Positions 25,626 to 40,507 of a stretch of 64,000 bases of DNA are shown piece by piece. Position 1 is the first letter of the stretch, and each line of letters starts with the position of its first letter. Below the pieces are notes generated by a model that saw nothing but the letters and a program-made list of their open reading frames with translations, did not search any database and was not told the origin of the DNA. Source of the DNA: Synechococcus sp. PROS-7-1 (GTDB lineage: Bacteria; Cyanobacteriota; Cyanobacteriia; PCC-6307; Cyanobiaceae); assembly GCF_014279795.1 (NCBI RefSeq), contig NZ_CP047945.1:2190572-2254571 (forward strand). The letters run 5' to 3'. Made by a program: the position numbers and the translations under genes.

Positions 25626-26144
25626 TTAAGCCCTGTGGAAGAACCAATAGGAGCCAACAGCGAGAACAACCAACAAAATAATTGGCACAGCGATCGCAGC
25701 CATTCCATTGTGGCTCTTGAGGACCCTGGATTCGTGGGCGACGACCGCATCACGAATGCTCACATGCATTTCCTCTCTTAGACGCTCGAGGTCAGAATCA
25801 ATCGAGGCGTCATCGTAAAGAGATCGAAGATGTTCAAAAGTCGACTTTCCAAGGATCAGACTCTTCTCGGGCTTCTCATAAAGGATCTCCATGAGCTCTT
25901 CTTTCGGAATCTCAACGATCTGGCATGACCTTGCAGCACGCGCATTGGCAATGCGAGGTCGACTATCAATGATCTCAACCTCCCCAAAGACGTGCCCAGG
26001 CCCATGGGTCTCGTCCACGCCCTCCCCGGTCTCCGGATAGAGCGTGGTCATCTCCACGGATCCGGATTTCACTAGATAGATGGCTGAGCTGTCTTGATCA
26101 GCCTTGTAGATGTAATCGCCCTGTTCAACCGCAAACCTGCGCAT
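25626..26144 (-). CDS. Cyclic-nucleotide-binding domain protein with C-terminal membrane anchor
   Basis: 172-aa protein. A CRP/CAP-type nucleotide-binding barrel (about 5-110: GDYIYKADQDSSAIYLVKSGSVEMT, phosphate cassette GHVFGEVEIIDSRPRIANARA) is followed by a charged helix (about 110-143) and a terminal hydrophobic helix (about 147-168). It has no DNA-binding domain, so it is not a CRP regulator. It looks like a tail-anchored receptor; ligand (cAMP or cGMP) and output are unknown. Divergent from devBCA across about 78 nt. Confidence 0.85.
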   Translation of the reverse strand: MRRFAVEQGDYIYKADQDSSAIYLVKSGSVEMTTLYPETGEGVDETHGPGHVFGEVEIIDSRPRIANARAARSCQIVEIPKEELMEILYEKPEKSLILGKSTFEHLRSLYDDASIDSDLERLREEMHVSIRDAVVAHESRVLKSHNGMAAIAVPIILLVVLAVGSYWFFHRA

Positions 26145-26222
26145 GGGAACTCAAGGAAATTTCGACCACCTTATCCAGGCATGCATTAGGGTGCAGCGCC
26201 ATTGGAAATCCGTGTTTCAACG

Positions 26223-27125
26223 ATGACAGAGCAGCCCGCACGACGCGGCGTCATCCGCGGCACGTTGATCACGCTTGGGGTTGTTGCCGTTGGCGCGCTT
26301 GGCTGGACGGCTTTCAAACCCAAGCCCACGCCCAAACCCGTGGTGAGTCGTCCTCAGCAGGTCACGGCCCTCGGACGCCTGATGCCCGAGGGAGGCCTGG
26401 TGCCGCTCTCAATCCCCGCCGGAACAGCAGGGGGCAACGAAGTGGTTCAGCAATGGTTTGCGGGAGAGGGAGACCCCATTCGCAAGGGTCAAGCGCTCGT
26501 CAGGCTCAGCAGCTTTCAGGAGCTGCAGGCCGCTGTCGTCCAAGCCCAGTCCAAGCTTCAATCCACTGGAGCTTTGCTGCCGTTCCTCAAGATCAGCCAG
26601 AGCCGAGGCAAGGAGCTGTTTCAGGGAGGTGCAATCTCGGAAGAGGAGCTTGCAAAAACAACCGCAAGCATTTTGGAAAAGCAAGCTGACGTTGAGGGAG
26701 CTCGCGCATCCCTTGTTCAAGCCCAAAGCCAGTTGAAAGCCGCGGAGGTTCGCTCACCACTGGATGGTCGCCTAATCAGGATTTACAGCTGGCCAGGGAT
26801 GAAGGAGAGCGAGGAAGGGCTTGCAGTCGTGGGCCGCACAGGGTCAATGCAAGCCTGGGTCCAGGTCTTCCAGACAGACGTTGAGCGTTTACGGATCGGA
26901 CAGAAAGCCTCGATCACCGCTGAGACAGGCGGTTTTCCCGGAAAAGTTCAGGGCACACTCAAGTCCATTATCGGCAAGGTCTCAGAACGTGATTTGTTTG
27001 CGGTCGCGGCCAACAACGATGTCAATGCACGGGTGGTTCTCGTGAAACTCGATCTCGAGCCGAGCCCTGACCTCCAATTGGATCGTCTCAGCGGCCTCAA
27101 TGTGACAGCGCGCTTCGAGCCATGA
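26223..27125 (+). CDS. devB: DevB-type membrane fusion protein of an ABC exporter
   Basis: About 300-aa HlyD-family periplasmic adaptor. It has an N-terminal membrane anchor (VIRGTLITLGVVAVGALGW), a lipoyl half-motif (GGNEVVQQWFAGEGDPIRKGQALVRL), a coiled-coil hairpin (about 105-170), the second lipoyl half (VRSPLDGRLIRIYSWPG) and a beta domain. It links the DevCA inner-membrane transporter to a TolC-like channel. No outer-membrane channel gene adjoins; a TolC gene exists 7 kb away at 33849. ATG 26223 chosen over 26202. Confidence 0.85.
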   Translation: MTEQPARRGVIRGTLITLGVVAVGALGWTAFKPKPTPKPVVSRPQQVTALGRLMPEGGLVPLSIPAGTAGGNEVVQQWFAGEGDPIRKGQALVRLSSFQELQAAVVQAQSKLQSTGALLPFLKISQSRGKELFQGGAISEEELAKTTASILEKQADVEGARASLVQAQSQLKAAEVRSPLDGRLIRIYSWPGMKESEEGLAVVGRTGSMQAWVQVFQTDVERLRIGQKASITAETGGFPGKVQGTLKSIIGKVSERDLFAVAANNDVNARVVLVKLDLEPSPDLQLDRLSGLNVTARFEP

Positions 27126-28321
27126 CACGCGGTGGGGGATGGAAATCGCGGCTGAACTGGCACGATCTGCCTTTGGCTTGGCTGCAGCTAAAACGCCAGC
27201 CGGTCCGTTACCTGGTTGCCGTCACCGGGATCGGTTTCGCTGCATTGCTGATGTACATGCAGCTCGGCTTTCAGTCCGGTTTGCTAAAAAGCGCCACCAC
27301 GTTTTACAACGCGCTCGACACCGACCTGGTACTGATTAGCCCTGCCACCGTCAACAGCGGCAGTTACCAACAGTTCCCACAATCCCAGCTGTTTCAAGCC
27401 CTAGGCCTACGCGGCATCAAGGAAACCATTCCTCTTTACATTGCCAACATCAACGCTCAACAGCTTGGCGGGGTCAAACCAACGTCGCTGCGGATGATCG
27501 GCTACGACCCTGATCTCACGGTCTTGAATGTTCCCGAGATCAACGCACAAAGCGATCAGCTCAAAACGCCGGGATTTGTTCTCTTCGACACACTCGGCAT
27601 TGCCATCAAAACAGGCCCTGTAGGCAAAACCTTTAAGGCCGATGGTCCACTCGACATGATTTTGTCCAACTTCGAGAAGACCTTCCGCATCAAGGGGCTA
27701 TTCCAACTGGGTTCAACCTTTGTTGCAGACAGCAATTTGATTGGTAGTGAGGCGACAGCCTTACAGCTTGCGTCAAGACAAATCAACCTTGGCGAAATTT
27801 CCTTAGGGCTAGTTCGAGTCAACAATCAATCCGAAATACCCAGAATCCAGAGAGACTTAAAATCGCTTTATGGAAATGAGCTACAGGTCCTCACCAAACC
27901 AGAGCTAATCAGCCAAGAGCGGGACTATTGGAATAATGTTTCGTCTTTTGGCGTCATTTTCGGTTTCGGAACAATCATGGGACTTCTCGTGGGAGGTGTG
28001 GTTGTTTACCAAGTGCTCTATACCGATGTCAGCGATCACCTCAAGGAGTACGCCACGCTCAAAGCCATGGGATTTTCCGATCAATTTATTTTGATCGTAG
28101 TCATCCAGGAAGCAGTCCTCCTCGGAGCTTCCGCATTCATCCCCGCGACGATTCTCAGTGCCATTCTCTACGCAGCGCTGACAGCAGTATCCGGCATCCA
28201 ATTACAAATGACTTTTGACAAATCTCTGCTGGTTGGCGCACTCACCATCAGCGTCTGCGCCATTGCATCCGCCATCGCAATCCGCAAATTGAGCGATGCC
28301 GATCCGGCGTCTGTTTTCTGA
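27122..28321 (+). CDS. devC: DevC-type ABC exporter permease
   Basis: 399-aa FtsX/MacB-like permease: one N-terminal membrane helix, a large periplasmic domain (about 60-265) and three C-terminal helices. ATGA overlap with devB at 27122-27125. In heterocyst-forming species DevBCA exports envelope glycolipids; this organism type does not form heterocysts, so the cargo here is unknown, possibly a lipid or glycolipid. Confidence 0.87.
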   Translation: MTRGGGWKSRLNWHDLPLAWLQLKRQPVRYLVAVTGIGFAALLMYMQLGFQSGLLKSATTFYNALDTDLVLISPATVNSGSYQQFPQSQLFQALGLRGIKETIPLYIANINAQQLGGVKPTSLRMIGYDPDLTVLNVPEINAQSDQLKTPGFVLFDTLGIAIKTGPVGKTFKADGPLDMILSNFEKTFRIKGLFQLGSTFVADSNLIGSEATALQLASRQINLGEISLGLVRVNNQSEIPRIQRDLKSLYGNELQVLTKPELISQERDYWNNVSSFGVIFGFGTIMGLLVGGVVVYQVLYTDVSDHLKEYATLKAMGFSDQFILIVVIQEAVLLGASAFIPATILSAILYAALTAVSGIQLQMTFDKSLLVGALTISVCAIASAIAIRKLSDADPASVF

Positions 28322-28327
28322 ATTTTT

Positions 28328-29053
28328 ATGCAGAACCCCTCTCCGAACACACCAGTGATCCGAACGGAGAACCTTTGTCACAGCTATGGCAAAGGGGAGT
28401 TGCGGACCCAAATCCTGCACGATCTGACATTCGATGTGCGCCGTGGTGAAATCACCCTGTTGGTCGGCCCCTCAGGCAGCGGAAAGAGCACGCTCCTGAC
28501 CCTGATTGGAGCCCTTAGATCGGTAGAAGAAGGATCAATTCAAGTTCTTGGCCAGGAACTGAACGGTGCTGATGAAACGGTATTGATGCAGACACGGCGG
28601 AGGATCGGCTTCATCTTCCAAAGCCACAACCTGGTGTCTTCACTGACCGTGCTGCAGAACGTACAAATCCTGCTTCAGCTCACGGAACCGCAACCGCAGA
28701 AGCGCCGTGACAAGGCCGTAGCCTTACTGGAGGCTGTGGGACTGAGCCACCGGCTGCATCATTTCCCCGAAGAACTGTCAGGAGGTCAGCGACAGCGGGT
28801 GGCGATTGCTAGGGCTCTTGCCCCCGAACCCGAATTGGTGCTTGCGGACGAGCCGACAGCATCCCTCGACAGCCGGTCTGGCCAGGATGTAGTGGAACTT
28901 CTCGGTAACCTCTGCCGCGATCGTGGCAGTGCTGTACTCCTGGTGACACACGATCTCAGACTGCTCAATGACGCTGACCGCATCTGGGCCATTGAAGATG
29001 GCCGCGTCAAAGCGTGGACTGAATCCAGCGGCAATGTCGTGCAGACTCACTGA
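28328..29053 (+). CDS. devA: DevA-type ABC exporter ATPase
   Basis: 241-aa ATPase of the MacB/LolD class: Walker A GPSGSGKST, Q-loop FQSHNL, signature LSGGQRQRVAIARALA, Walker B LVLADEP, switch His VTHD. It starts 6 nt after devC and completes the exporter. Confidence 0.9.
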   Translation: MQNPSPNTPVIRTENLCHSYGKGELRTQILHDLTFDVRRGEITLLVGPSGSGKSTLLTLIGALRSVEEGSIQVLGQELNGADETVLMQTRRRIGFIFQSHNLVSSLTVLQNVQILLQLTEPQPQKRRDKAVALLEAVGLSHRLHHFPEELSGGQRQRVAIARALAPEPELVLADEPTASLDSRSGQDVVELLGNLCRDRGSAVLLVTHDLRLLNDADRIWAIEDGRVKAWTESSGNVVQTH

Positions 29054-29073
29054 GCCGCATTAAGGTCCCAACC

Positions 29074-30039
29074 GTGCCCGCCAGTGCCACTGCAGCCGTC
29101 TTCCCTGATCACTGGATCAAGGAAGGAACCTGGAAGAACCACAGGATCAGCTGGATTGCGACAGACCATCGTGATGGTGAGAGGACAGCGCTCCTCATTC
29201 ACGGTTTCGGGGCCTGCAAAGAACACTGGCGACACAACGTGAAGGCCCTGACTGGGGAACACCAGGTTGTCGCTCTCGACTTGCTGGGCTTTGGATCGAG
29301 CGACAAGCCACCTTCAATCCTTGAAGGGGAACAACCCATTCCTGAGGGTGTGCGCTACAGCATCGACCTCTGGGCCAATCAGGTGGTGGATTTCATTGCG
29401 CACCAAGGGCTCACTGGTGTTGATCTGATTGGCAATTCGATTGGTGGAGTCGTCGCACTTCGCGCCGCCGAAATCCTTGAGGAACGCGACCAACCTGCAG
29501 CAATGGTTGTGCTGATCGACTGTGCTCAGCGTGCGATCGACGACAAACGCGTTTCGGAACAACCACCTTTCAGAGCCTTCAGTCGCCCCCTGCTGAAACA
29601 ACTCGTACGGCAACGCTGGCTGACACGCTCCCTTTTTCTGAGCCTGGCACGACCCGGGGTGATCAGAAGAGTTCTTCAGTTGGCTTACCCCACTGGAGCT
29701 TCGGTGGACGACACTCTGGTGGAGGTTCTTCACCGAGCAGCACGCAGTCCAGGAGCGACTGAATCCTTTCGCGGTTTCATTAACCTCTTCAATGACCATC
29801 TCGCACCTGATGTTCTTCAGAGAATCCAAACACCGGTGAAGATGATCTGGGGAGAAGCCGATCCCTGGGAGCCACTCAGCCAGGCTCAACAGTGGACGCG
29901 TTACGCATCCGTACGCGAACTCGCGATCATTCCATCTCTGGGCCACTGCCCGCACGATGAGGGACCTGAACAGGTCAATCCCGTCCTGCAGCGAATGCTC
30001 AACCCCAATGGCAGTCCTGCCGAGGAGCTTAACTCTTGA
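29074..30039 (+). CDS. Alpha/beta-fold hydrolase
   Basis: 321-aa hydrolase. Oxyanion region is LLIHGFGACKEHWRHN, nucleophile Ser in LIGNSIGGVVALRAA (about residue 128), acidic residue in MIWGEADPWEP and His in SLGHCPHDEGPEQVN. The GNSIGG elbow and overall layout resemble pheophytinase/chlorophyll dephytylase-like plastid and cyanobacterial hydrolases, but the substrate is not proven. GTG start 21 nt after devA; its stop overlaps the MFS start. Confidence 0.8.
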   Translation: MPASATAAVFPDHWIKEGTWKNHRISWIATDHRDGERTALLIHGFGACKEHWRHNVKALTGEHQVVALDLLGFGSSDKPPSILEGEQPIPEGVRYSIDLWANQVVDFIAHQGLTGVDLIGNSIGGVVALRAAEILEERDQPAAMVVLIDCAQRAIDDKRVSEQPPFRAFSRPLLKQLVRQRWLTRSLFLSLARPGVIRRVLQLAYPTGASVDDTLVEVLHRAARSPGATESFRGFINLFNDHLAPDVLQRIQTPVKMIWGEADPWEPLSQAQQWTRYASVRELAIIPSLGHCPHDEGPEQVNPVLQRMLNPNGSPAEELNS

Positions 30040-31229
30040 ACAAAAAAATCCTTCTCGTCCTCTGCCTCGTGGTGGCAGTGGATGCCGCCAGCTTCGGCCT
30101 GCTGCTGCCTGTCGTGCCGTTCTTCGTGCATCAGCTCACCGGCTCCTTCAACGCCATCGCTGTGACCAGTGTCACGGCGACCTACTCAGGCCTGCAATTC
30201 ATCGGCGCACCGGTGATCGGACGTTTGTCCGACCGATGGGGGCGGCGCAGTGTTCTGACGGTCACCGTGGCCATCAGTGCGGTCGCTTTGATCGGTCAGG
30301 CACTCTCCACCTCGCTTCTGATCCTTCTGTTGTTCTCTGGCTTGAATGGCGCATCCTCCGGTGTCTTTGCAATCTCCCAGGCGCTGGTTGCTGACACCGT
30401 CGAGGATCGCAATCAGCGCACCGTTGGATTCGGAGCCATCGGTGCAGCTCTGGGACTTGGCTTCATCATCGGCCCTGGCATCGGTGGGGCACTCGGGGCC
30501 ATTGATCCACGCTTTCCCTTTTTTGTGGCATCAGCTTTTTGCCTGCTGAATGTTGTCTTGATTCGCCTTTATCTCCCAAAAGCGTCGAAGCCCAAACAAC
30601 CCATCACCTCCCAAGAAAAAGCGACGAATCCTTTATTCACCCGAGGGGACCATCGCCTAAAAAAGCTCATCAGCATCTATTTTCTCTTCTATCTGGGCTT
30701 CAGTGCCTTTTCGGGAATCTTCGTACTGGCAGCCAAAGAACGGTTCAACTGGGGGCCGCAACCCACCTCCCTGGTGCTCGTGTATGTCGGAGTGGTTGCC
30801 GTCGTTGTACAGGGTGCATTGTTACCTCGCCTACTGAAAGCCATTCGTCCCGACAAGCTCTCGATCATCGGGCTCAGCCTTGTTGCCGTGGCAATGCTGG
30901 GAGTATCCGTCATCAGCGAAGGACGTGATCTTTATGCCACCCAACTCTTGTTTGCGGGGGGCGTGGGACTCAGCACCCCTGGCCTGCGCTCGGCAATGTC
31001 CCTATGCGTCAACGAAAATCAACAGGGAGTCCTCGGAGGCATGACCCAGTCGGTGGTGAGTCTGACGTCCCTGATCGGGCCCTTGCTTGCAGGACAAATG
31101 TATGAATCAGCAGGCTACGGAGCCACGTTCCAGACTCAAGCTGTTCTGGTGTTCGTTGCGGTCGGTCTGTTGGCCTCCATGCCAAGACTGCCGGCTGATC
31201 CTCAGGCTGTAAAAACACCCTCGGCATAA
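30036..31229 (+). CDS. Major facilitator superfamily transporter
   Basis: 397-aa transporter with 12 predicted helices; loop 2-3 motif is GRLSDRWGRRSV and motif C-like segment GAALGLGFIIGPGIGGALG (antiporter type, as in tetracycline/multidrug exporters). TTG start overlaps the hydrolase stop by 4 nt. Substrate unknown. Last 28 nt overlap the convergent VOC gene. Confidence 0.88.
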   Translation: MNKKILLVLCLVVAVDAASFGLLLPVVPFFVHQLTGSFNAIAVTSVTATYSGLQFIGAPVIGRLSDRWGRRSVLTVTVAISAVALIGQALSTSLLILLLFSGLNGASSGVFAISQALVADTVEDRNQRTVGFGAIGAALGLGFIIGPGIGGALGAIDPRFPFFVASAFCLLNVVLIRLYLPKASKPKQPITSQEKATNPLFTRGDHRLKKLISIYFLFYLGFSAFSGIFVLAAKERFNWGPQPTSLVLVYVGVVAVVVQGALLPRLLKAIRPDKLSIIGLSLVAVAMLGVSVISEGRDLYATQLLFAGGVGLSTPGLRSAMSLCVNENQQGVLGGMTQSVVSLTSLIGPLLAGQMYESAGYGATFQTQAVLVFVAVGLLASMPRLPADPQAVKTPSA

Positions 31230-31618
31230 CCGATCAACTCAATCTGGTGACCATCGGGATCTGACAGAAAAAGAGCTCGGCAGCGGGGGCCGTAATCAAA
31301 AGCTGTGATCGAGAGGCCTTGCGATTCGAGCCTCGTCTGAACGTCGTCGAGGCAGGCATAGGTGATGCGAAATGCCACATGGCGCATCGCCACAGTGCTG
31401 TGGTCAGGCACAGGCTTGAGCTGAGCACTGTCCGCGGGAAAGAGATTCAAATAGTTGCCTTCAGCAACCCGCAGTAGAAAAGGCGGTCCTTGCTGCAGAC
31501 CTTCCATTGCAGCAGGCTTGAAGCCCAGCACGTCCTCATACCAGCGCATGGATCGTTGGGGATCACTGACGGTGAGAGCGACGTGATCAAGGGCTTCGAT
31601 CGGAAGAGAAGAGGCCAT
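31202..31618 (-). CDS. VOC (glyoxalase/dioxygenase) family protein
   Basis: 138-aa metal-dependent fold of two beta-alpha-beta3 modules: LDHVALTVSDPQRSMRWYEDVLGF and RHVAFRITYACLDDVQTRL, ending LFLSDPDGHQIELIGY. Metal ligands are likely His in DHVAL and RHVAF and Glu in QIELI. Could be a lactoylglutathione-lyase-like enzyme or a detoxification protein; substrate unknown. Confidence 0.85.
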   Translation of the reverse strand: MASSLPIEALDHVALTVSDPQRSMRWYEDVLGFKPAAMEGLQQGPPFLLRVAEGNYLNLFPADSAQLKPVPDHSTVAMRHVAFRITYACLDDVQTRLESQGLSITAFDYGPRCRALFLSDPDGHQIELIGYAEGVFTA

Positions 31619-31664
31619 GGCTTAGGCAGTGAACAATGGGAGGTCAACAACAGCGGAAGGTCGA

Positions 31665-32714
31665 TTACCGAAAGAGTCCGGCATCGCGCTTTTCTCTCAA
31701 CATGCGGCGAAGGGCAAGGGTTGAGACATCGCTGGCGACCAGGAGATCGCCATGTCCATCGAGATCAGGAATCAGAGGCCTGAGGGTCTCAACCGTCCGT
31801 TGATCTTCAGCCATGAAACGGTCGACACGACCGCGCGCATTGCTGTCAGCCAGAGGACTGCGCAAAAAAGAACGGAAGTGACGCCAGAGATTGCGGGTTG
31901 TGGTCCCATCAACTGGAACGTGGGCCGTGAGGAGTGAGATCTGGAAATCACCGAAGACCACGCGAACCAGAGACACATTCGCCAGCCAGAGCTGGATGTG
32001 TTGTTCCCCGCCGTCATCAGAGGAGATTGAGGATCCTTGCTCATCACCTTGGTTGAACCAAGCGCGCAATCCTCGGCCCTGATCAGCGCGATAGTGACGG
32101 TCACGAGGGGCCAGAACCCTCTCGTAAACACTATCGTCCTTCGCCCACTGCTCAACGGGCATCAGCTGGTCCGGTGCCATCGCCCCGAAGCTGCCACTGT
32201 GCACAAACGGCGCATGGGTGAGGTCCATGAAAGCCTCAAGGACCCTCATCCAGTGGGCCTGCCACTCAACAGAGCCTTCGAGAGAACGCCAGGAGCGATC
32301 TCCATCCTCCGGGACAGGACCAACCTTCGGTAAAGGGGGCAACTCTTCGGAAGAGGACCGTGCGTCAGGATCCCACCAGATCCAGATAAAGCCAACCGAC
32401 TCATGACAGTGGAGTGAGGACGCTTGTGCCCGCCGAGGGATGGACTGCGAGCTGTCTTGGGCTGGGATCTTGCTGCAGTGGCCATCCGCCTGATAACACC
32501 AGCCGTGATAAGGGCATGCCAAGCCCTGTTCACCCACGAGTCCTGCACTGAGGCTCGCTCCCTTGTGCGGGCAGCGGTCAAACAGGACAGAAAGCTGGCC
32601 ATCAGGAGCTCTCCAGATAGCAAACGCCTGACCGTGGAAGTCAAGACGGCGCACAGATCCCGCGGGAACCGCGGATGAATGCTCAACGGCGTACCAGGAG
32701 CGAGTCAGCTGCAT
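31665..32714 (-). CDS. Rieske [2Fe-2S] oxygenase, PaO/CAO-like
   Basis: 349-aa oxygenase. N-terminal Rieske domain has DRCPHKGASLSAG and LACPYHGWCY (C-x-H ... C-x2-H cluster ligands at about residues 47-69). The catalytic part has EAFMDLTHAPFVHSGSFG, whose Asp and two His fit the mononuclear iron site. Plant relatives act on chlorophyll breakdown products or chlorophyllide; the cyanobacterial substrate is not known. Last gene of the minus-strand run starting at crtP, 12 nt after the 92-aa ORF, which suggests a pigment-related role. Confidence 0.87.
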   Translation of the reverse strand: MQLTRSWYAVEHSSAVPAGSVRRLDFHGQAFAIWRAPDGQLSVLFDRCPHKGASLSAGLVGEQGLACPYHGWCYQADGHCSKIPAQDSSQSIPRRAQASSLHCHESVGFIWIWWDPDARSSSEELPPLPKVGPVPEDGDRSWRSLEGSVEWQAHWMRVLEAFMDLTHAPFVHSGSFGAMAPDQLMPVEQWAKDDSVYERVLAPRDRHYRADQGRGLRAWFNQGDEQGSSISSDDGGEQHIQLWLANVSLVRVVFGDFQISLLTAHVPVDGTTTRNLWRHFRSFLRSPLADSNARGRVDRFMAEDQRTVETLRPLIPDLDGHGDLLVASDVSTLALRRMLREKRDAGLFR

Positions 32715-32726
32715 GGTGGTGATGGC

Positions 32727-33005
32727 TTAAGAACCGAGATGGGTTTTCCAGACGTCGGAATCCGGGGAGGACATGAACCAGCGCCGATCCTGCAAAGCCC
32801 TGAGAAGGCTAATAGCAGACTCGCTCTCTAAAGCCAGACCCCAATCGGAGTCAAGACATTGACGAAGTTCGGCAGTGGAAAGTCCACGCCGCAAACCCTT
32901 TTTGAGCAGACGGCGGAGAGGGGGATGATCAAGCTGAACCATGAGTGCCATGGTGAGAGGCCCGCTGGGCAGCGCCTCCAAGTCAAGGGAAGCCCCTTCA
33001 GTCAT
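32727..33005 (-). CDS. Unknown 92-residue protein coupled to the ParA-like ATPase
   Basis: Opens at ATG 33005, overlapping the parA stop by 4 nt (ATGA), so translation is coupled. Sequence includes HPPLRRLLKKGLRRGLSTAELRQCL and ALESESAISLLRALQDRRW, a basic helical protein perhaps with a winged-helix-like core. No family recognised. Partner genes of ParA ATPases are often small basic proteins encoded next to them, so it may be the cognate partner (inference). Confidence 0.72.
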   Translation of the reverse strand: MTEGASLDLEALPSGPLTMALMVQLDHPPLRRLLKKGLRRGLSTAELRQCLDSDWGLALESESAISLLRALQDRRWFMSSPDSDVWKTHLGS

Positions 33006-33772
33006 GCAGAAACAGACGCTTCCATGAGGGACTTGCAAAGATCTCTGACTGCAGTGGACCAGGTGTGATTAGGAAATTCAAGAACAGCAAGTCCACCACT
33101 GGCCAGGGTGAGCAAATCTTCACTCAGAGGAAGAATTGATCCAATACTCACCTCATAACTTTCCTGCATACGCAGGCGAACTTCATCTCTACTGAATTGA
33201 CTGGGAAGCTTATTCATCACAAGCTGGATATTTGCCACATCCAACCGTTGCGCCACCTCAATGGCAACAGCAGTTCCGAGATAATCCTGACTATCTGGGC
33301 GCATGACCATGACCAAACAATCAGCAATGGCAGCTGAAAGCAAGGTCTCTTCGTTGATACCAGGGTGGGTATCGACAATGACATAATCGAGCTTAAGAGA
33401 GTCTGCTAAAGCAAAAATCGCATCATTCAACTTTTCAACCTGATATCCTTCTCGTAGTAATCTTGCGATCCGATCACTATCCATTGAGGCCGGGGCAAGG
33501 AACACATGTCCTTTCGCTGCCTTGACGGGAGCCGGGGTTACTTCATGAACACAATCCTTGATCGCTGCATCTTCCTGAAGGAAATCATTAAGGCAAAGAT
33601 CACCGTCTTCATGGGTATAACCAAAAAGAACATGCACACCTGGCGAGGCCAAATCGGTATCGAAAATAGCGACGCGCTGACCTTGAAGCCCCAGACTTGT
33701 CGCCAGATTCGCAGTGAGATTGGATTTTCCCGTGCCTCCTCTAAAAGAGTGAACAGCAATGATCTGCGTCAT
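33002..33772 (-). CDS. ParA/MinD-family ATPase
   Basis: 256-aa deviant-Walker ATPase: SFRGGTGKSNLTANLATSLG with the signature Lys, switch I FDTDLASPGVH, Walker B YVIVDTHPGI. Such proteins form nucleotide-dependent dimers on the nucleoid or membrane and position cargo. It lacks a MinD-like C-terminal amphipathic helix that I can see. The FRGGTGKSN P-loop differs from plasmid ParA and MinD (KGGxGKT). It lies 76 nt after tolC in a run of signalling and export genes. Confidence 0.88.
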   Translation of the reverse strand: MTQIIAVHSFRGGTGKSNLTANLATSLGLQGQRVAIFDTDLASPGVHVLFGYTHEDGDLCLNDFLQEDAAIKDCVHEVTPAPVKAAKGHVFLAPASMDSDRIARLLREGYQVEKLNDAIFALADSLKLDYVIVDTHPGINEETLLSAAIADCLVMVMRPDSQDYLGTAVAIEVAQRLDVANIQLVMNKLPSQFSRDEVRLRMQESYEVSIGSILPLSEDLLTLASGGLAVLEFPNHTWSTAVRDLCKSLMEASVSA

Positions 33773-33848: not shown

Positions 33849-35483
33849 TCATCCGTCTGAGTTGAAGGAGTTTTTCGCCCTTCGCAGGATTGAGGTCAAT
33901 CCCAACTCAGACAAGGGATCACCAACCTTTTGAACCAAACCTGGATCGGCTGCAAAGGTCAGTCCGCTAGCACGCGAAAGATTGACCAGAGCAAGGTTGT
34001 AATCGGAAAGCTGACTTATATAGGACTCAACGGCCTGGGTCAGATCTTGCTGAGACTGCACGACATCAGTAATCGTTCCGTAACCTGCGTTGAATCGAAG
34101 CGACTGAAGCTTTAATGCGGTCGATGCAGCTTGAACCCTCTGCGAAGCCACGATGACAGCTTCTCTGCCCTCAACAGACTGAGAGAAGTACTCCCGAACC
34201 TCTTCAATCACGGAATTAATAGATTGCTGGGCTGCAGCCTGGGCAGATTTTGCACGCTTGCGTGATGCTTCGGCGTCCATGCGTGCACGTCCACCATCAA
34301 ACCCCGTCAAAGTGACTTGAATCACGGATTCAGAATTCCAAAAATCACTTCGACCTGTTTCGATGATCCAAGGAGAACCTGAGCTTGGAAAACCTAAGTT
34401 TTTAGTCCAATACAGAGAATTGACAAGTTCAATTGTTGGCTTATAAATTGCCAAATCAATCTGCGCCTGCAATTCATTTTGCTGAGCAATCGAAAGATTT
34501 TTAACAATGACCTGACGGTAGTCCAGGGCCGACTCGATCGTTTCATCAAGAGAAACCTGCCAAGAGCCCAGAGGACTGAGCGCTTCGCTGGGCTTAATTT
34601 TGTTGGCCCTCGGATCATTCAATAAGGCAGCCAGCTCGGCTTGTGCAACCATCGAACTACTTTTGGAATTAACAAGATTGACCTGATCAGTTCTTAGAAC
34701 AGTCAACTGCTTAGCAACATCAAGTTCAGACGAAACGCCTAGCTTTTTCCTAGACTTTGCAAGATCGAGCAACAGCATATCATTCTCAACAAGCTGTTCG
34801 CTGGTAAGAATAGACGCAAGAAACTTCTGCAAGCGCACGTAAGCCTGTTGCGTCTGAAGTGCATAATCACGGCGTGAAATAATGTAATCACTTCCCGCCT
34901 CTTTAACAAGGTACTTACCTTTCCAGATCTGGGGCTGACGCACAGGATCATAGATCTTCCAATTCAAATCAAGAGTTTGCACACCTTGAAGGTAACTACT
35001 TGTGTAAGAACGCGCAAAGATATAAGAGGGGAGCTCGCTTGCAGAGGCCCCATATTCAGAATAGATTGAAGTATCAATACCACTGTTTGCACCCGCATAG
35101 TTATAGTAGGAATTTTGGTTGTAATTACCAAAATTAAGATTAAAGCTCAACACAGGCCACCACGTTGCAAAGTCGGAACCAAGTGAATCTTGAGCCGCCT
35201 TGAATGATTGCAGATTTTCAAGAATGACTGGGTTCCTCTCTTCTGCTAAACGAACGGCTGTCTGCATATCGAGGTTTTGAAGGGCATCCTCTGGAATCGA
35301 CGGCGAAACGGGCTGTGGCAACCGACGACTCACTGGCCAAGACCCAGTAATCGCCTCGATTGAGGAAGCAGTTGGGAGCTCTTGTTCAGCACGAACTCTG
35401 CCGCAACTAAAACCCTCCAGCAGAAGCAATGCAGCGTTGACTGCTGCGAACGAAGATATCAGTTTCACACAAAAGAGTCTCAT
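33849..35483 (-). CDS. TolC-family outer-membrane efflux protein
   Basis: 544-aa outer-membrane channel: signal peptide (about 1-32), Pro/Ser-rich segment, then the two-fold repeat of long helices and barrel strands (LDMQTAVRLAEERNPVILENLQSFKAAQ near 72; second repeat from about 300), with the closing LRFNAGYGTITDVVQSQQDLTQAVESYISQLSDYNLALVNLSRASG. Serves type I secretion or ABC/RND export. Start codon overlaps the crtB stop by 4 nt (35480-35483), so it is coupled to carotenoid synthesis. G+C is low here (22/60 at 34381-34440). Confidence 0.9.
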   Translation of the reverse strand: MRLFCVKLISSFAAVNAALLLLEGFSCGRVRAEQELPTASSIEAITGSWPVSRRLPQPVSPSIPEDALQNLDMQTAVRLAEERNPVILENLQSFKAAQDSLGSDFATWWPVLSFNLNFGNYNQNSYYNYAGANSGIDTSIYSEYGASASELPSYIFARSYTSSYLQGVQTLDLNWKIYDPVRQPQIWKGKYLVKEAGSDYIISRRDYALQTQQAYVRLQKFLASILTSEQLVENDMLLLDLAKSRKKLGVSSELDVAKQLTVLRTDQVNLVNSKSSSMVAQAELAALLNDPRANKIKPSEALSPLGSWQVSLDETIESALDYRQVIVKNLSIAQQNELQAQIDLAIYKPTIELVNSLYWTKNLGFPSSGSPWIIETGRSDFWNSESVIQVTLTGFDGGRARMDAEASRKRAKSAQAAAQQSINSVIEEVREYFSQSVEGREAVIVASQRVQAASTALKLQSLRFNAGYGTITDVVQSQQDLTQAVESYISQLSDYNLALVNLSRASGLTFAADPGLVQKVGDPLSELGLTSILRRAKNSFNSDG

Positions 35484-36423: not shown

Positions 36424-37458
36424 TCAGGCACCAAGCTGCTGACGTCGTTGCCGCATCAACCGAGCACGTTCCGATAATGACTGGAAAGCAGGATCGCTAG
36501 TAATGGCTTTGACCTGCGAAACAACAGATTGACGGCTGATCTTAACCTCTAGCTTCTGGATTGTCACATGCAATGCCGTGTCGTTTTCGACCAACACAGA
36601 TGCAATCTCGGAGACATGGCTGAGCAGACGCATCACGCTGGCATCGTTACTGGCCGTAGCCGACAATTGGCTAATCACCGACTGTGCCTGATCAATCTGA
36701 GAGCGAACGCGTGACTGGGCTTCCTTGAGATTGTCGTAGAGCGACAAATCATCGTCATAACGAAATTTCTTTTCTAAAGATGAGTCAACACGAGCACGAA
36801 GCAATGTGAGATTGCATGGTTTAGGCAAATAATCATCTGCACCAACGTCGATACAACGAATAACAACATCGATGTCATCAAGACCAGATATCATAATGAC
36901 TGGAATCATCGACAACTGATCATTACCCTGCAAAAATTCCAGAACTTCTTCCCCATTACAGCGAGGCATCTGCACATCCAAGAGAATCAAATCAAAGGGT
37001 TTCTCTTGTACGATATTGATCGCAACTTCACCATCCTCAGCAGTCGACACAACATGATGATCCCGTGTCAATGCTGCAACGAGCATATCCCTATTGCTAG
37101 CGTTGTCATCGACAACCAAAACACGACCTTTGCGACCTCCTAGTCGATCTGATTGTCGTTGGTGAGGTGTCTTTGAAAGACTAGTTTTAAGCTGAACAAC
37201 AGATCCTGATTTTTTATTGTTTTTCAATACATGTTTCTCGGCCTGTAACTCTTGAGGTGTTAATCGGCTGCGGATCATCTCAAGCAAGACAAGGGCAGAA
37301 TCTCGGATCCTGGAGAGGTCTTCAGCCGCAAGTTCTTCTCCTGCTTCTAATTCTTCAGTCAGTAGCTCGCTGTAACCAACAATTTGATTGATTGGATTAT
37401 AAAGATCATGACGCAATAGCTTGAGATTTGTCTCTTCGGAAAAAAACTGTTCAGACAT
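36424..37458 (-). CDS. DHp-like and receiver-domain protein without kinase domain
   Basis: 344-aa protein. Residues about 8-65 resemble a histidine-kinase dimerisation domain (NLKLLRHDLYNPINQIVGYSELL, candidate phospho-His at 17). Then a linker, a full receiver domain (about 111-230: VLVVDDNASNRDM, phospho-Asp at about 161 in LILLDVQMPRCNG, Lys in YLPKPCN) and a C-terminal coiled coil and helix (about 235-340). No ATPase domain is present, so the His may act as a phospho-relay or dimer contact. It follows the CheY-like gene directly (1-nt overlap) and precedes crtB by 2 nt. Confidence 0.85.
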   Translation of the reverse strand: MSEQFFSEETNLKLLRHDLYNPINQIVGYSELLTEELEAGEELAAEDLSRIRDSALVLLEMIRSRLTPQELQAEKHVLKNNKKSGSVVQLKTSLSKTPHQRQSDRLGGRKGRVLVVDDNASNRDMLVAALTRDHHVVSTAEDGEVAINIVQEKPFDLILLDVQMPRCNGEEVLEFLQGNDQLSMIPVIMISGLDDIDVVIRCIDVGADDYLPKPCNLTLLRARVDSSLEKKFRYDDDLSLYDNLKEAQSRVRSQIDQAQSVISQLSATASNDASVMRLLSHVSEIASVLVENDTALHVTIQKLEVKISRQSVVSQVKAITSDPAFQSLSERARLMRQRRQQLGA

Positions 37459-37832
37459 TATGAAGCACCCTTGGACAACAGTGAGTTGATTTTCTCAAGC
37501 AAACGGGGCAACTCGATCGGCTTTGTATCAAAATCATCACATCCAGCACCCAGGCAAGCTTCGCGGTCCTGCATCATCGCATGGGCGGTCAATGCAATCA
37601 CTGGAATGGATTGGGTCTGAGGATCATCTTTTAATTTTCGAGTCGCATCGAAGCCGTCCATGACTGGCAGGCCTATGTCCATCAAAATCAAATCAGGACG
37701 AAGCTCATTGGCCCTTTCAATTGCCGCCGCGCCATCGCACGCAATCTCTACCGTAAAACCTTTACGTGTTAGTCGACGAGAAAGCATATCTCGATTCAAC
37801 TCGTTGTCCTCGACAAGGAGAATCACTGTCAT
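37458..37832 (-). CDS. Single-domain CheY-like response regulator
   Basis: 124-aa stand-alone receiver: acidic pair VEDNE, phospho-acceptor Asp 52 (LILMDIGLPVMDGFDATRKLK), Thr in ALTAHAM and Lys in DTKPIEL. No output domain. Start overlaps the hybrid kinase stop (ATGA, 37829-37832), so kinase and regulator are made together. Confidence 0.92.
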   Translation of the reverse strand: MTVILLVEDNELNRDMLSRRLTRKGFTVEIACDGAAAIERANELRPDLILMDIGLPVMDGFDATRKLKDDPQTQSIPVIALTAHAMMQDREACLGAGCDDFDTKPIELPRLLEKINSLLSKGAS

Positions 37833-40507
37833 GACTTTGAAGGTGCCTCGGTAGAGAGCGTAATGAGTTCTTCAATTACAGAGATAAGCACATGAACACT
37901 ATCATTAGATAATGGAAGCCAACGTGTGCCGACGGAATCCAAACGCATCAAAATGTCAGGCGTCAAACTTTCTGACGACATGGCGACAAGCGGTAATTTT
38001 CTAGCATTATAGTGTTGGCGAATGTTCTCAATCATGGAAATTGTTGACTCTACGCGATAGGTCATGTCCACAATCATGAGATGCGGGCAATTATTTAAAA
38101 CGAATGTCTCCATTAAACCTGGATCCTGCATCACCGTTAAGTGACATTGAATGTCTTCTAGCGCCTCAAGCCTTTGTTGAATCATCGAGCTAAGTTCAGA
38201 GCAATTTTGCAACAGGGCAACATCTAGTTGATCCACTTTGTGGCTAATGCTAAGTCGATTCAAAATCGACTCTAAACGCCCCCAGTCAATCGGTTTCTGT
38301 AAACAACCAGCTGCACCAAGCATCGCTGACAATTTTTGTGTGTCATCTCGACTGACAACAACAACCGGCAGAGAGGATAACCTCTGATCACTTTTAACCA
38401 TTGCCAAAACGTTCCATTCATCTGAATTTGAAGTATTAATATCCACAATCACGGCATCCGGCATAATGCCAGCTATCGATTCAAAACCAATTTCGCTATT
38501 GGGAACACCAATGACCTCAAAATTGTTTTTCGTCAGAAAGCGCTTGATCAAATCCATCGAATCTTGATCATCGTCAGCCACAACAATTTTTCCGCGACTC
38601 ACTAATGATGAAGTTGTTGAGTCCACCTCAGAACTTTTAGCCTTTTCTTCGTCGTGAAGGGAATGAGTATCTTCGTTTTCTTCAATCACAGCAGAGGACG
38701 CATAACGAGGCACGATCATCGTGAACGTGCTTCCATCCCCAAGCGAACTTTGAACACTAATGTCTCCGCCCATTAAGCGGCTGAGTTTACGACTTAATGA
38801 CAAGCCAAGACCGGTTCCTCCGTATTGACGAGTCGTACTTGCATCCGCCTGACTGAAGTCGCTAAAGAGCTTGGACTGTTGTTGTTCTGTCATGCCAATT
38901 CCAGTATCGATGACTGAGAATGAGATTTGTGGAACTCCAGCCTCTGAATTAATGAATCTGCACGATAGTCGTACAGTGCCGTTCTCCGTAAACTTGCAGG
39001 CATTGCCAATAAGATTAATCAAAGACTGGCGAACCTTTGTGATATCCAAGAATGCAATATCATCAGACTTGCTGGGCCTTTCGCAAATAAACTCATTATT
39101 ATTTTTGAGGGCAAGAGGCTCTGCTGTCGCGCAAACATCATCTAAAATTCTATTCACTGAATATTTCTCATTATAAACCGTCATTTTACCTGCCTCAATT
39201 TTTGAAAGATCTAGAACGCCATTAATTAAGCCCAGCAAATGACGACCTGAAGACAATATCTTCTCCAAATCAGAAACGAAATCACTTGGCTCTAATTCTT
39301 CCGACTCTTCAATAAGCATTTCGCTATAGCCGATAATGGCATTCATTGGCGTGCGTAATTCATGACTCATATTCGCCAAAAATTCACTTTTCGCTTTACT
39401 TGCAAGGAACGCCGTTTTCTTAGCTCGATGGGCTCTTAAACTTTGATGCTCTGCTTCAAGGCGAAGTTTCTCTCCTTCTAGCAAAGTGGATTTAAGCCGC
39501 CTTTCAAAGAAAACAGTAACCAAAATCACAGACAGCAGAATTAGGATAATTGGTGCCATCGCTACAAAAACGATGCGAGCTGCCAAATCATTGATTTCGG
39601 AGACTTTTGAGCCTACATAAATTTGAAATCCCCAGCGCTCAAACGGGTATTGCTGAATGTCATATCCAGCTATACGTTCCAGAGCATTATTGGATTGTCG
39701 CGACTGATCAATTATCTTCTGGATTTCTTCGCGTGGTTTGCCGAGCGTGAGATAAACAATATCTCCTTTATCATCAACGAGAGTCAAAAAACCCAAGGAA
39801 CCAACAGCTGATGTCTGGATGACTTGACCAACATCACGAAGTTCGTCAAGGGGATATCCAACACCAATAGCTCCGACGACAGCTTGTTGCTGATTCTCAA
39901 TAGGTTTGTAGTGGGTGATATAAGGCCGACCAAAAAGATATTCAATTCCATAAGATTCTTTACCCTGAAGCAAGAGAGGCTTAACTCTCCCGTCCAAATT
40001 AAGAACTGTTCCCTTGGCTAATTCTCCACTCTGGTTACGCACAGTTGTTTTCGCTCGAACGAATTCACCGTCTCTAACAGTGAATATCGTGGCTTGAGCA
40101 CCTAAGCCATCTTCAAGCATTTCAAAGATGCGATTCAACTTCTGCGAAGGGCGGACATCCAATTGCTTCAGGGTGTTAAGAATAAGCTCCCGAGATTGTT
40201 CGTCAGACTGGAATGAATATGCCTTGCCATCGCTTAACGTTGCGAAGATAAAACTAAGATCTGCTTCAGTTAAACTTCGATAAAAAGAATCGACCAAGTC
40301 AAGCTGAGCAGCAGTTGAACGGATAAGTTGATCAGTTCTCTCCAAGAAGTATTCCTGAGTGCGCTCGCGTAAACGCACATAAGTATAAGCAACAGATCCA
40401 GCAATTAAAGTAGCGACAACAAGTATCCAGGTTCGAGACAAACGCTGAACACGCTCGGATCGGGATTCCGATGTTCCGATTAATCGTCGACGTAATGAGC
40501 TCATCAT
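37829..40507 (-). CDS. Membrane-bound hybrid histidine kinase with Cache-like sensor
   Basis: 892-aa kinase. It has TM1 (about 27-45), a periplasmic sensor (about 46-308) with a Cache-type look (ATIFTVRDGEFVRAKTTV, ITHYKPIENQQQAVVGAIGVGYPLDEL), TM2 (about 310-335), coiled coil, DHp domain with His about 382 (SHELRTPMNAIIGYSEM), ATPase domain (NLIGNACKFTENG, DTGIGM, GGTGLGLSLS), receiver (about 640-755, Asp about 689) and a final pseudo-receiver (about 761-885) that keeps an Asp (MIVDMTYR) but lacks the acidic pair and the conserved Lys. It senses a periplasmic ligand (unknown). It lies 5 nt after crtP. G+C is about 35 percent at 39121-39180. Confidence 0.92.
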   Translation of the reverse strand: MMSSLRRRLIGTSESRSERVQRLSRTWILVVATLIAGSVAYTYVRLRERTQEYFLERTDQLIRSTAAQLDLVDSFYRSLTEADLSFIFATLSDGKAYSFQSDEQSRELILNTLKQLDVRPSQKLNRIFEMLEDGLGAQATIFTVRDGEFVRAKTTVRNQSGELAKGTVLNLDGRVKPLLLQGKESYGIEYLFGRPYITHYKPIENQQQAVVGAIGVGYPLDELRDVGQVIQTSAVGSLGFLTLVDDKGDIVYLTLGKPREEIQKIIDQSRQSNNALERIAGYDIQQYPFERWGFQIYVGSKVSEINDLAARIVFVAMAPIILILLSVILVTVFFERRLKSTLLEGEKLRLEAEHQSLRAHRAKKTAFLASKAKSEFLANMSHELRTPMNAIIGYSEMLIEESEELEPSDFVSDLEKILSSGRHLLGLINGVLDLSKIEAGKMTVYNEKYSVNRILDDVCATAEPLALKNNNEFICERPSKSDDIAFLDITKVRQSLINLIGNACKFTENGTVRLSCRFINSEAGVPQISFSVIDTGIGMTEQQQSKLFSDFSQADASTTRQYGGTGLGLSLSRKLSRLMGGDISVQSSLGDGSTFTMIVPRYASSAVIEENEDTHSLHDEEKAKSSEVDSTTSSLVSRGKIVVADDDQDSMDLIKRFLTKNNFEVIGVPNSEIGFESIAGIMPDAVIVDINTSNSDEWNVLAMVKSDQRLSSLPVVVVSRDDTQKLSAMLGAAGCLQKPIDWGRLESILNRLSISHKVDQLDVALLQNCSELSSMIQQRLEALEDIQCHLTVMQDPGLMETFVLNNCPHLMIVDMTYRVESTISMIENIRQHYNARKLPLVAMSSESLTPDILMRLDSVGTRWLPLSNDSVHVLISVIEELITLSTEAPSKS

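Follow-up and report, generated by a model that had tools for sequence, protein, structure and literature searches.

The window, by which we mean the whole stretch of 64,000 nucleotides analysed, comes from a single-contig genome of 2,565,218 bases that is a marine Synechococcus as judged by its relatives. Synechococcus WH7803 is the nearest named relative, with 94% identity in the ATPase described here. The features on which the argument draws are:

25626-26144, minus strand: cNMP-binding protein, 172 aa, with a hydrophobic C-terminal end (by eye)
26202-29053, plus strand: DevB-DevC-DevA exporter genes
32727-33005, minus strand: winged-helix partner, 92 aa, an ORF overlapping the ATPase gene
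33002-33772, minus strand: ParA/MinD-family ATPase, 256 aa, with a Pfam ParA match
33849-35483, minus strand: TolC-type outer-membrane protein
36424-37458, minus strand: HisKA-REC protein, 344 aa, with a C-terminal tail
36436-36588, minus strand: the tail, 51 aa, predicted to form a helix and, after it, a basic helix at the C-terminus
37458-37832, minus strand: single-domain response regulator, 124 aa (Response_reg, 100.4 bits)
37829-40507, minus strand: hybrid sensor histidine kinase with Cache_3-Cache_2, HisKA, HATPase and REC domains, its presumed role deduced from gene order

As the initial annotation of this DNA had stated, the ATPase gene and the 92-aa ORF overlap by ATGA (33002-33005), and TolC and a kinase lie upstream of the pair; both genes are on the minus strand, which that annotation did not give. 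Its reading of the larger gene as a ParA-like ATPase is borne out by matches above the Pfam cut-offs for ParA (59.4 bits, cut-off 27.1), AAA_31 (47.5, cut-off 27) and CbiA (46.8, cut-off 25.4). By sequence, the nearest solved structures are of MinD and FlhG-FleN (MinD-type 4v03, the nearest, at E 3.7e-13; FleN 5j1j at E 7.9e-8), but by the NCBI cut-offs the protein is not a MinD and falls far below them (TIGR01968, 46.3 bits against 212.9; TIGR01969, 85.0 against 201.75). MinD furthermore has a signature lysine where this ATPase has arginine, and has other partners. The KGGVGR-motif variant AAA ATPase family (NF047398) also combines a ParA/MinD-type domain with a variant P-loop; its loop variant is a different one, and our ATPase scores 75.1 bits, below the cut-off of 90. 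PADLOC matched the ATPase to PDC-M28B (6.7e-13), which we put down to the common P-loop domain.

The P-loop in the window reads HSFRGGTGKSN, in which R11, aligned to the K of MinD, replaces the signature lysine of KGGxxGK[ST]. All 18 aligned homologues share H8, S9, R11, G12, G13, T14, G15, K16, S17 and N18, and likewise D38, D40 and D134; we take K16 to be the Walker A lysine and the three aspartates to be catalytic. Over 166 homologous ORFs from 137 loci, some of which come from the same or near-identical genomes (e.g. L048 and L068), the loop is HSFRGGTGKSN in 128 and HSYRGGTGKSN in 30, and deviates in 8. As HS[FY]RGGTGKSN is near-constant among these ORFs, the loop is a family signature; it is thus unusual, as had been claimed, when set against plasmid ParA and MinD, but not within its own large family, where 158 of the 166 ORFs carry it. 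The family counts at least 586 confirmed stretches in the genome collection, and the 79 loci kept are from Cyanobacteria, Chloroflexota, Actinomycetota, one Planctomycetota and one MAG labelled Bacteroidetes. A single member was found in the host genome, whose two further matches to it are 26% identical and 38% identical over 52 residues, respectively. Between the host and WH7803 the dN/dS of the ATPase is 0.03.

The 92-aa ORF is under purifying selection (dN/dS 0.16 at 86% identity to its WH7803 counterpart) and is therefore a real gene. Its product had been described as basic; with 11 K+R against 12 D+E, a pI of 6.06 and a charge of -1.3 at pH 7 it is not, and 10 of 14 aligned Synechococcus-type homologues are also net negative. 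The suggestion that it is a conserved partner of the ATPase is borne out by the pairing described next; the reason given for it, a basic activator, is wrong. Conservation of the pair had been named as the check to make, and we find the ORF in 9 of the 121 genomes of the host's family (the host's own included), which are precisely those with a full-length ATPase at >=62% identity, leaving out of the count G087, where the ATPase is a fragment cut by the contig end. A further genome of the same genus, G385, likewise has the ATPase and a homologue of the small protein. Pfam, NCBIfam and PADLOC gave no family for the 92-aa protein at the thresholds applied. An AlphaFold2 model (pLDDT 85.6, from an alignment of 15) predicts a winged helix, with helices at 19-24, 28-39, 44-55 and 62-73 followed by strands at 77-80 and 85-88. 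Its structure matches are mostly winged helices of many families, at Z <=6.3 and with a Roc-COR protein in the top row, and as Foldseek returned nothing at E <= 0.001, we claim for the model a common winged-helix fold alone; the structure matches give no function.

The pairing extends well beyond Synechococcus. In many Anaerolineae and some filamentous cyanobacteria the ORF directly 3′ of the ATPase gene encodes 90-130 aa, and profile searches iterated separately from a Synechococcus, a Nodosilinea-type and a Chloroflexota seed converge on overlapping sets. Among 21,945 ORFs of the ATPase loci there are 95 winged-helix matches, 83 of which adjoin an ATPase gene, about 34 of the 95 being seeds and hence adjacent by construction. 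An adjoining match is present at 84 of the 166 ATPase genes; the other 82 have none, so that a neighbouring partner is not obligatory. By group, the neighbour is found at 18 of 20 ATPase genes in the Synechococcus-type loci, 16 of 70 in other cyanobacteria, 47 of 68 in Chloroflexota, 3 of 6 in Actinomycetota (of which L130 alone has a clear small protein downstream and the other two are weak matches) and 0 of 2 elsewhere. On a tree of 157 ATPases built by a quick method the winged-helix label is clustered, with 20 changes against 52.5 in shuffles, and is present in many parts of the tree; the Synechococcus-type clade has it in all 18 rows, and its sister L050 lacks it. Profile alignment with hhalign joins the window partner to 13 other cyanobacterial partners (88.4%, E 2.8e-6, score 39.8; of 40 alignments with shuffled columns, 20 per set for two sets, none scored above 16.5). 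The alignment of the window partner is weak with the set from the second Chloroflexota paralogue (18.7%) and not significant with the main Chloroflexota downstream partners (0.3%); both Chloroflexota sets align with the other cyanobacterial partners, and it is through those that the link to the window runs. When solved structures were searched with the Chloroflexota partners, the one match was weak, to the repressor AdcR at E 0.46.

In genome G383 the two genes occur as a natural fusion of 378 aa, the ATPase at residues 3-259 and the winged helix at 286-367, and in two further loci the partner winged helix forms the N-terminal domain of TIR-WD40 proteins:

L207, 3248-4381, plus strand: ATPase-winged-helix fusion with the loop HSFRHGTGKSS; a separate pair (L161) is present in this genome as well
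L201, 3945-7046, plus strand: TIR-WD40 protein with the partner winged helix, TIR assigned by eye
L202, 1127-4330, minus strand: TIR-WD40 protein with the partner winged helix, TIR_2 listed by Pfam

A domain that heads TIR-WD40 and other large proteins favors the role of an adaptor. The TIR-WD40 proteins are possibly an effector branch of the module. The same winged helix also heads proteins of ~920-980 aa in L203-L206 (L203 and L206 were scanned, with no clear Pfam identity), and in the Actinomycetota loci L110 (5698-6684, minus strand), L111 and L114 it follows a domain that, in L110, the one scanned, matches alpha-acetolactate decarboxylase. Searching whole genomes with the winged-helix model gave matches in 63 of 292 at E <= 1e-4, many of which are probably generic winged helices. 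With a post hoc cut at E <= 1.1e-9, 18 of 20 matching genomes had the ATPase, although 11 of these 18 had contributed rows to the model, and some of the matches lie in long proteins, and we do not rely on this cut. A narrower model, A2, matched 5 of 292 genomes; its match in G045 (6.5e-4), a genome without a family ATPase, we take as chance.

The second element associated with the ATPase is a tail of ~50 residues common to diverse sensors. It is C-terminal in most of them, with ~25 to 165 residues beyond it in some cyanobacterial proteins. Like endings were noticed on sensor proteins adjoining distant homologues of the ATPase, and a profile built from six such tails, the window left out, yielded 123 domain lines at first and 137 in the second and later rounds. 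The domain is present at E <1e-5 in 103 proteins, including the HisKA-REC protein of the window, which is also found at E 2.5e-7 (in a search of the window and the 21,945 locus ORFs) by a model from 42 tails that holds no rows from the Synechococcus family. Pfam domains in 81 of the 103 proteins were HAMP (38), cNMP (18), dCache (14), REC, PAS and GAF (7 each), CHASE2 (6), Tll0287 (5) and FHA (1), and in some of the proteins HAMP is all that Pfam sees ahead of the tail. When 61 tails alone were compared with Pfam, no trusted family emerged, the best match being to HAUS2 at 0.00055.

In the window, crtB and TolC come between the ATPase gene and the tail gene, which is 2.6 kb away, and the structure model of the tail gene's product has long helices at 217-268 and 273-320 and a C-terminal helix at 323-343 (block means of pLDDT from 61 to 91). 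The sensor varies among related islands: in L042, L045, L046 and L065 a HAMP tail protein adjoins the ATPase gene in divergent orientation, and L045 and L065 additionally retain the HisKA-REC tail protein. No natural fusion of ATPase and tail, or of tail and winged helix, was seen among the locus ORFs.

The distribution of the tail follows that of the ATPase closely. Among 292 cyanobacterial genomes, with cut-offs of E <= 1e-30 for the ATPase and E <= 1e-6 for the tail, the tail is found in 39 of 41 with the ATPase and 0 of 251 without it (Fisher 1.7e-46), and among 151 Chloroflexota genomes in 21 of 21 and 1 of 130 (Fisher 8.4e-25), both Fisher values ignoring the relatedness of the genomes. 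The ATPase matches of the two tail-less cyanobacterial genomes (G207 and G245) are weak or partial, and the sole exception in Chloroflexota, G509, is a partial tail match at 2e-7. Of the 121 genomes in the host's family, 17 have an ATPase of the HS[FY]RGGTGKSN family and 16 the tail, which is missing from G022, a 62% complete genome. Here the ATPase split (E <= 6e-45, the next match being at 1.1e-9) was read from the gap in E-values; the other ATPase and tail thresholds, in the cyanobacterial, host-family tail and Chloroflexota searches, were set with the search itself. Within the 8 genera of mixed presence, tail and ATPase agree in 27 of 27 genomes.

Because the seeds of the tail and winged-helix models came from ATPase neighbourhoods, genomes that contributed rows are positive by construction, which applies to at least 13 of the 39 cyanobacterial genomes with a tail; the zeros among the ATPase-free genomes are unaffected by this seeding. 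In 14 of the 39, every tail found is >15 kb away from any family ATPase or on another contig, and 9 of these 14 assemblies have <=7 contigs. These unlinked tails indicate that the co-occurrence is more than linkage. The kinase that had been pointed out upstream of the pair is tied to it more firmly than was guessed, since the HisKA-REC protein adjoining the kinase bears a tail whose presence goes with that of the ATPase in two phyla.

The ATPase family is thus associated with a small winged-helix protein and also with sensors that have a tail in common. We consider it probable, on balance, that the three form a signalling module in which a ParA-type ATPase is controlled by sensors by way of the tail and cooperates with a winged-helix adaptor; all interactions among the ATPase, the tail and the winged-helix protein we infer. 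In the window genome the signal would pass from the Cache-type hybrid kinase to the small receiver protein (the 124-aa response regulator), the likely relay step, and on to the HisKA-REC protein. The tail, which is helical and has a basic helix at its end, could then dock on the ATPase and set its ATP-bound dimer or its hydrolysis. The winged-helix protein would bind the ATPase as an adaptor or second regulator and might tie it to a target, either DNA or an effector protein. Candidates for the target in the island, put forward with reserve, are the co-conserved DevBCA, TolC, Rieske and MFS genes, and the cNMP protein might conceivably add cyclic-nucleotide control over the island's output.

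What is new here is the common tail of diverse sensors co-occurring with the ATPase. In the open-licence literature searched we found no paper on a module of ATPase, winged helix and tail, and none containing the string RGGTGKS. Many ParA/MinD ATPases are "orphans" whose partner is not known, as stated in the portion of the source available (PMC10241942). For the ATPase described here there are now two candidate partner types, and the co-occurrence in two phyla makes the link directly testable. The host genome and WH7803 each hold one ATPase of the HS[FY]RGGTGKSN family, one tail and one winged-helix partner, a set small enough to be suited to a first study. If the tail is a docking element, sensors without an obvious output domain would gain an output, and the ParA-type ATPase would be a hub of signal transduction, more than a positioning motor. 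We raise tentatively, and hold to be somewhat doubtful, the wider reading of a signalling architecture general to bacteria, alongside two-component and second-messenger systems, in which a common tail addresses one ParA-type ATPase. The sensors of such an architecture would comprise extracellular Cache, heme-type Tll0287, cNMP, GAF, PAS, REC, CHASE2 and FHA proteins, and its adaptors would be winged helices that stand alone or are fused to the ATPase or to effectors (TIR-WD40).

The closest arrangement that we found in print is PomX/PomY/PomZ of Myxococcus xanthus, also a ParA/MinD ATPase with two types of partner in the part of the account at hand (PMC13170346), though this is a likeness of arrangement and not membership. 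In that text PomZ has two activators, one of which, PomY, carries a winged-helix domain without DNA binding in the assay (PMC13170346). The cargo of PomXYZ is the division site, whereas the module described here has as its other partner element a tail carried by many unrelated sensors, and its winged helix is mostly a small protein of its own. The ATPase-activating peptides known are, according to the same portion, mostly N-terminal (PMC13170346), unlike the C-terminal tail of the module. In cyanobacteria, McdA-McdB, which positions carboxysomes, likewise consists of a ParA-family ATPase and a partner protein, but neither a winged helix nor a sensor tail is mentioned in the opening lines of the abstracts; a scan of 12 distinct window proteins gave no match to a carboxysome family. 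In the VMAP/vWA-MoxR ternary conflict systems MinD/ParA-like domains, winged helices, cNMP and TIR domains occur, but those of MinD/ParA type are predicted to be inactive effectors, in the sections accessible (Kaur 2020, PMC7159879). Neither MoxR nor vWA is among the 25 most frequent of the 85 Pfam families in 99 ATPase neighbours.

In the window the pair adjoins an island (25626-32714) made up of the cNMP protein, DevBCA, an alpha/beta hydrolase, an MFS protein, a glyoxalase-like ORF and a Rieske oxygenase. The hydrolase, by eye and motif, presumably resembles pheophytinase, and together with the Rieske enzyme it suggests a chemistry of pigment breakdown or export. Among 20 Synechococcus-type loci, which differ in length, the hydrolase is present in 19, MFS and Rieske in 18 each, TolC in 16, and DevC and cNMP in 15 each. 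The ATPase family is much wider than this island. Outside the Synechococcus-type loci, homologues of DevB-DevC-DevA occur in L084 and of DevB in L079, homologues of the 172-aa cNMP protein directly adjoin the ATPase gene in L050, L079, L083 and L084, and L166 has Rieske, glyoxalase, MFS and cNMP homologues <3 kb from it; part of the island therefore predates the Synechococcus family. DevA-like matches also turn up at many other loci, where they probably represent generic ABC ATPases. In L180 the gene immediately upstream of the ATPase encodes a TolC-type OEP, and in L174 the ATPase gene has an ABC exporter as a neighbour. It is possible that the ATPase pair positions an envelope machine, as the initial annotation proposed, and the co-location of TolC and DevBCA in the Synechococcus-type island is circumstantial evidence for this, but exporter or OEP neighbours elsewhere are a minority of the loci inspected.

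Strict positioning is the best placed of the other explanations, although we regard it as rather unlikely. The ATPase would form gradients on the nucleoid or membrane that move or space a cargo, either sensor clusters or an exporter, and the tail and the winged-helix protein would be its activators, as in PomXYZ or McdAB. The ParA/MinD fold, with MinD and FleN as the relatives of solved structure, and the exporter or OEP genes next to some relatives (L084, L180 and L174) would fit this. Partners of such ATPases are said to be diverse and to link them to cargo in the available text of one source (PMC10241942), and in that of another the region which activates PomZ takes in the winged helix (PMC13170346). 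Against this, the ATPase is strongly acidic (pI 4.73, charge -14.9) and inspection by eye revealed no clear amphipathic membrane helix of MinD type at its C-terminus, and the tails are also found on cNMP, GAF and REC proteins besides HAMP and Cache sensors. No cargo gene stands out as common among the 99 neighbours (alignment A6), whose most frequent families are cNMP (11), HAMP (10) and sigma-70 (7).

A transcription switch, in which the winged-helix protein is a DNA-binding regulator held or released by the ATP-bound ATPase, we judge unlikely. FleN acts on FleQ in such a way, and the predicted fold of the small protein matches, among others, ArsR, PadR and IclR regulators. Sigma-70 domains in 7 of the 99 neighbours and sensors as input would also suit a switch, and 2 of 16 partners matched MarR_2, if weakly (best E 0.015). 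What speaks against DNA binding is that 27 of 35 winged-helix partners are net negative, and that the domain heads the TIR-WD40 proteins L201 and L202 and other large proteins, which suggests an adaptor. In PomY, moreover, the winged helix bound no DNA according to the part of that report available (PMC13170346). That the ATPase is an orphan ParA relative whose neighbours hitch-hike in an accessory island is suggested by the patchiness of the island (same-genus genomes G034, G075 and G101, and likewise G329, lack the ATPase, the tail and the small protein alike), but this is close to refuted by partner adjacency beyond the phylum, the natural fusion and the co-occurrence of unlinked tails.

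Some gene arrangements recur around the ATPase in other lineages. In L071, L077, L086, L093 and other Anaerolineae two ATPase paralogues lie on opposite strands a few kilobases apart, most of them accompanied by their own winged-helix gene, and one of the two has a tail-bearing protein as a neighbour. In Herpetosiphon (L082, L097 and L121) a tandem ATPase paralogue has the loop HSFRPGTGKSQ. A recurrent arrangement in cyanobacteria, as in L051, L052, L152, L154 and L156, is the ATPase gene followed by a glutaminase-type gene, assigned by motif, and a tail-bearing sensor; Pfam confirmed a glutaminase in 2 of the 99 neighbours scanned.
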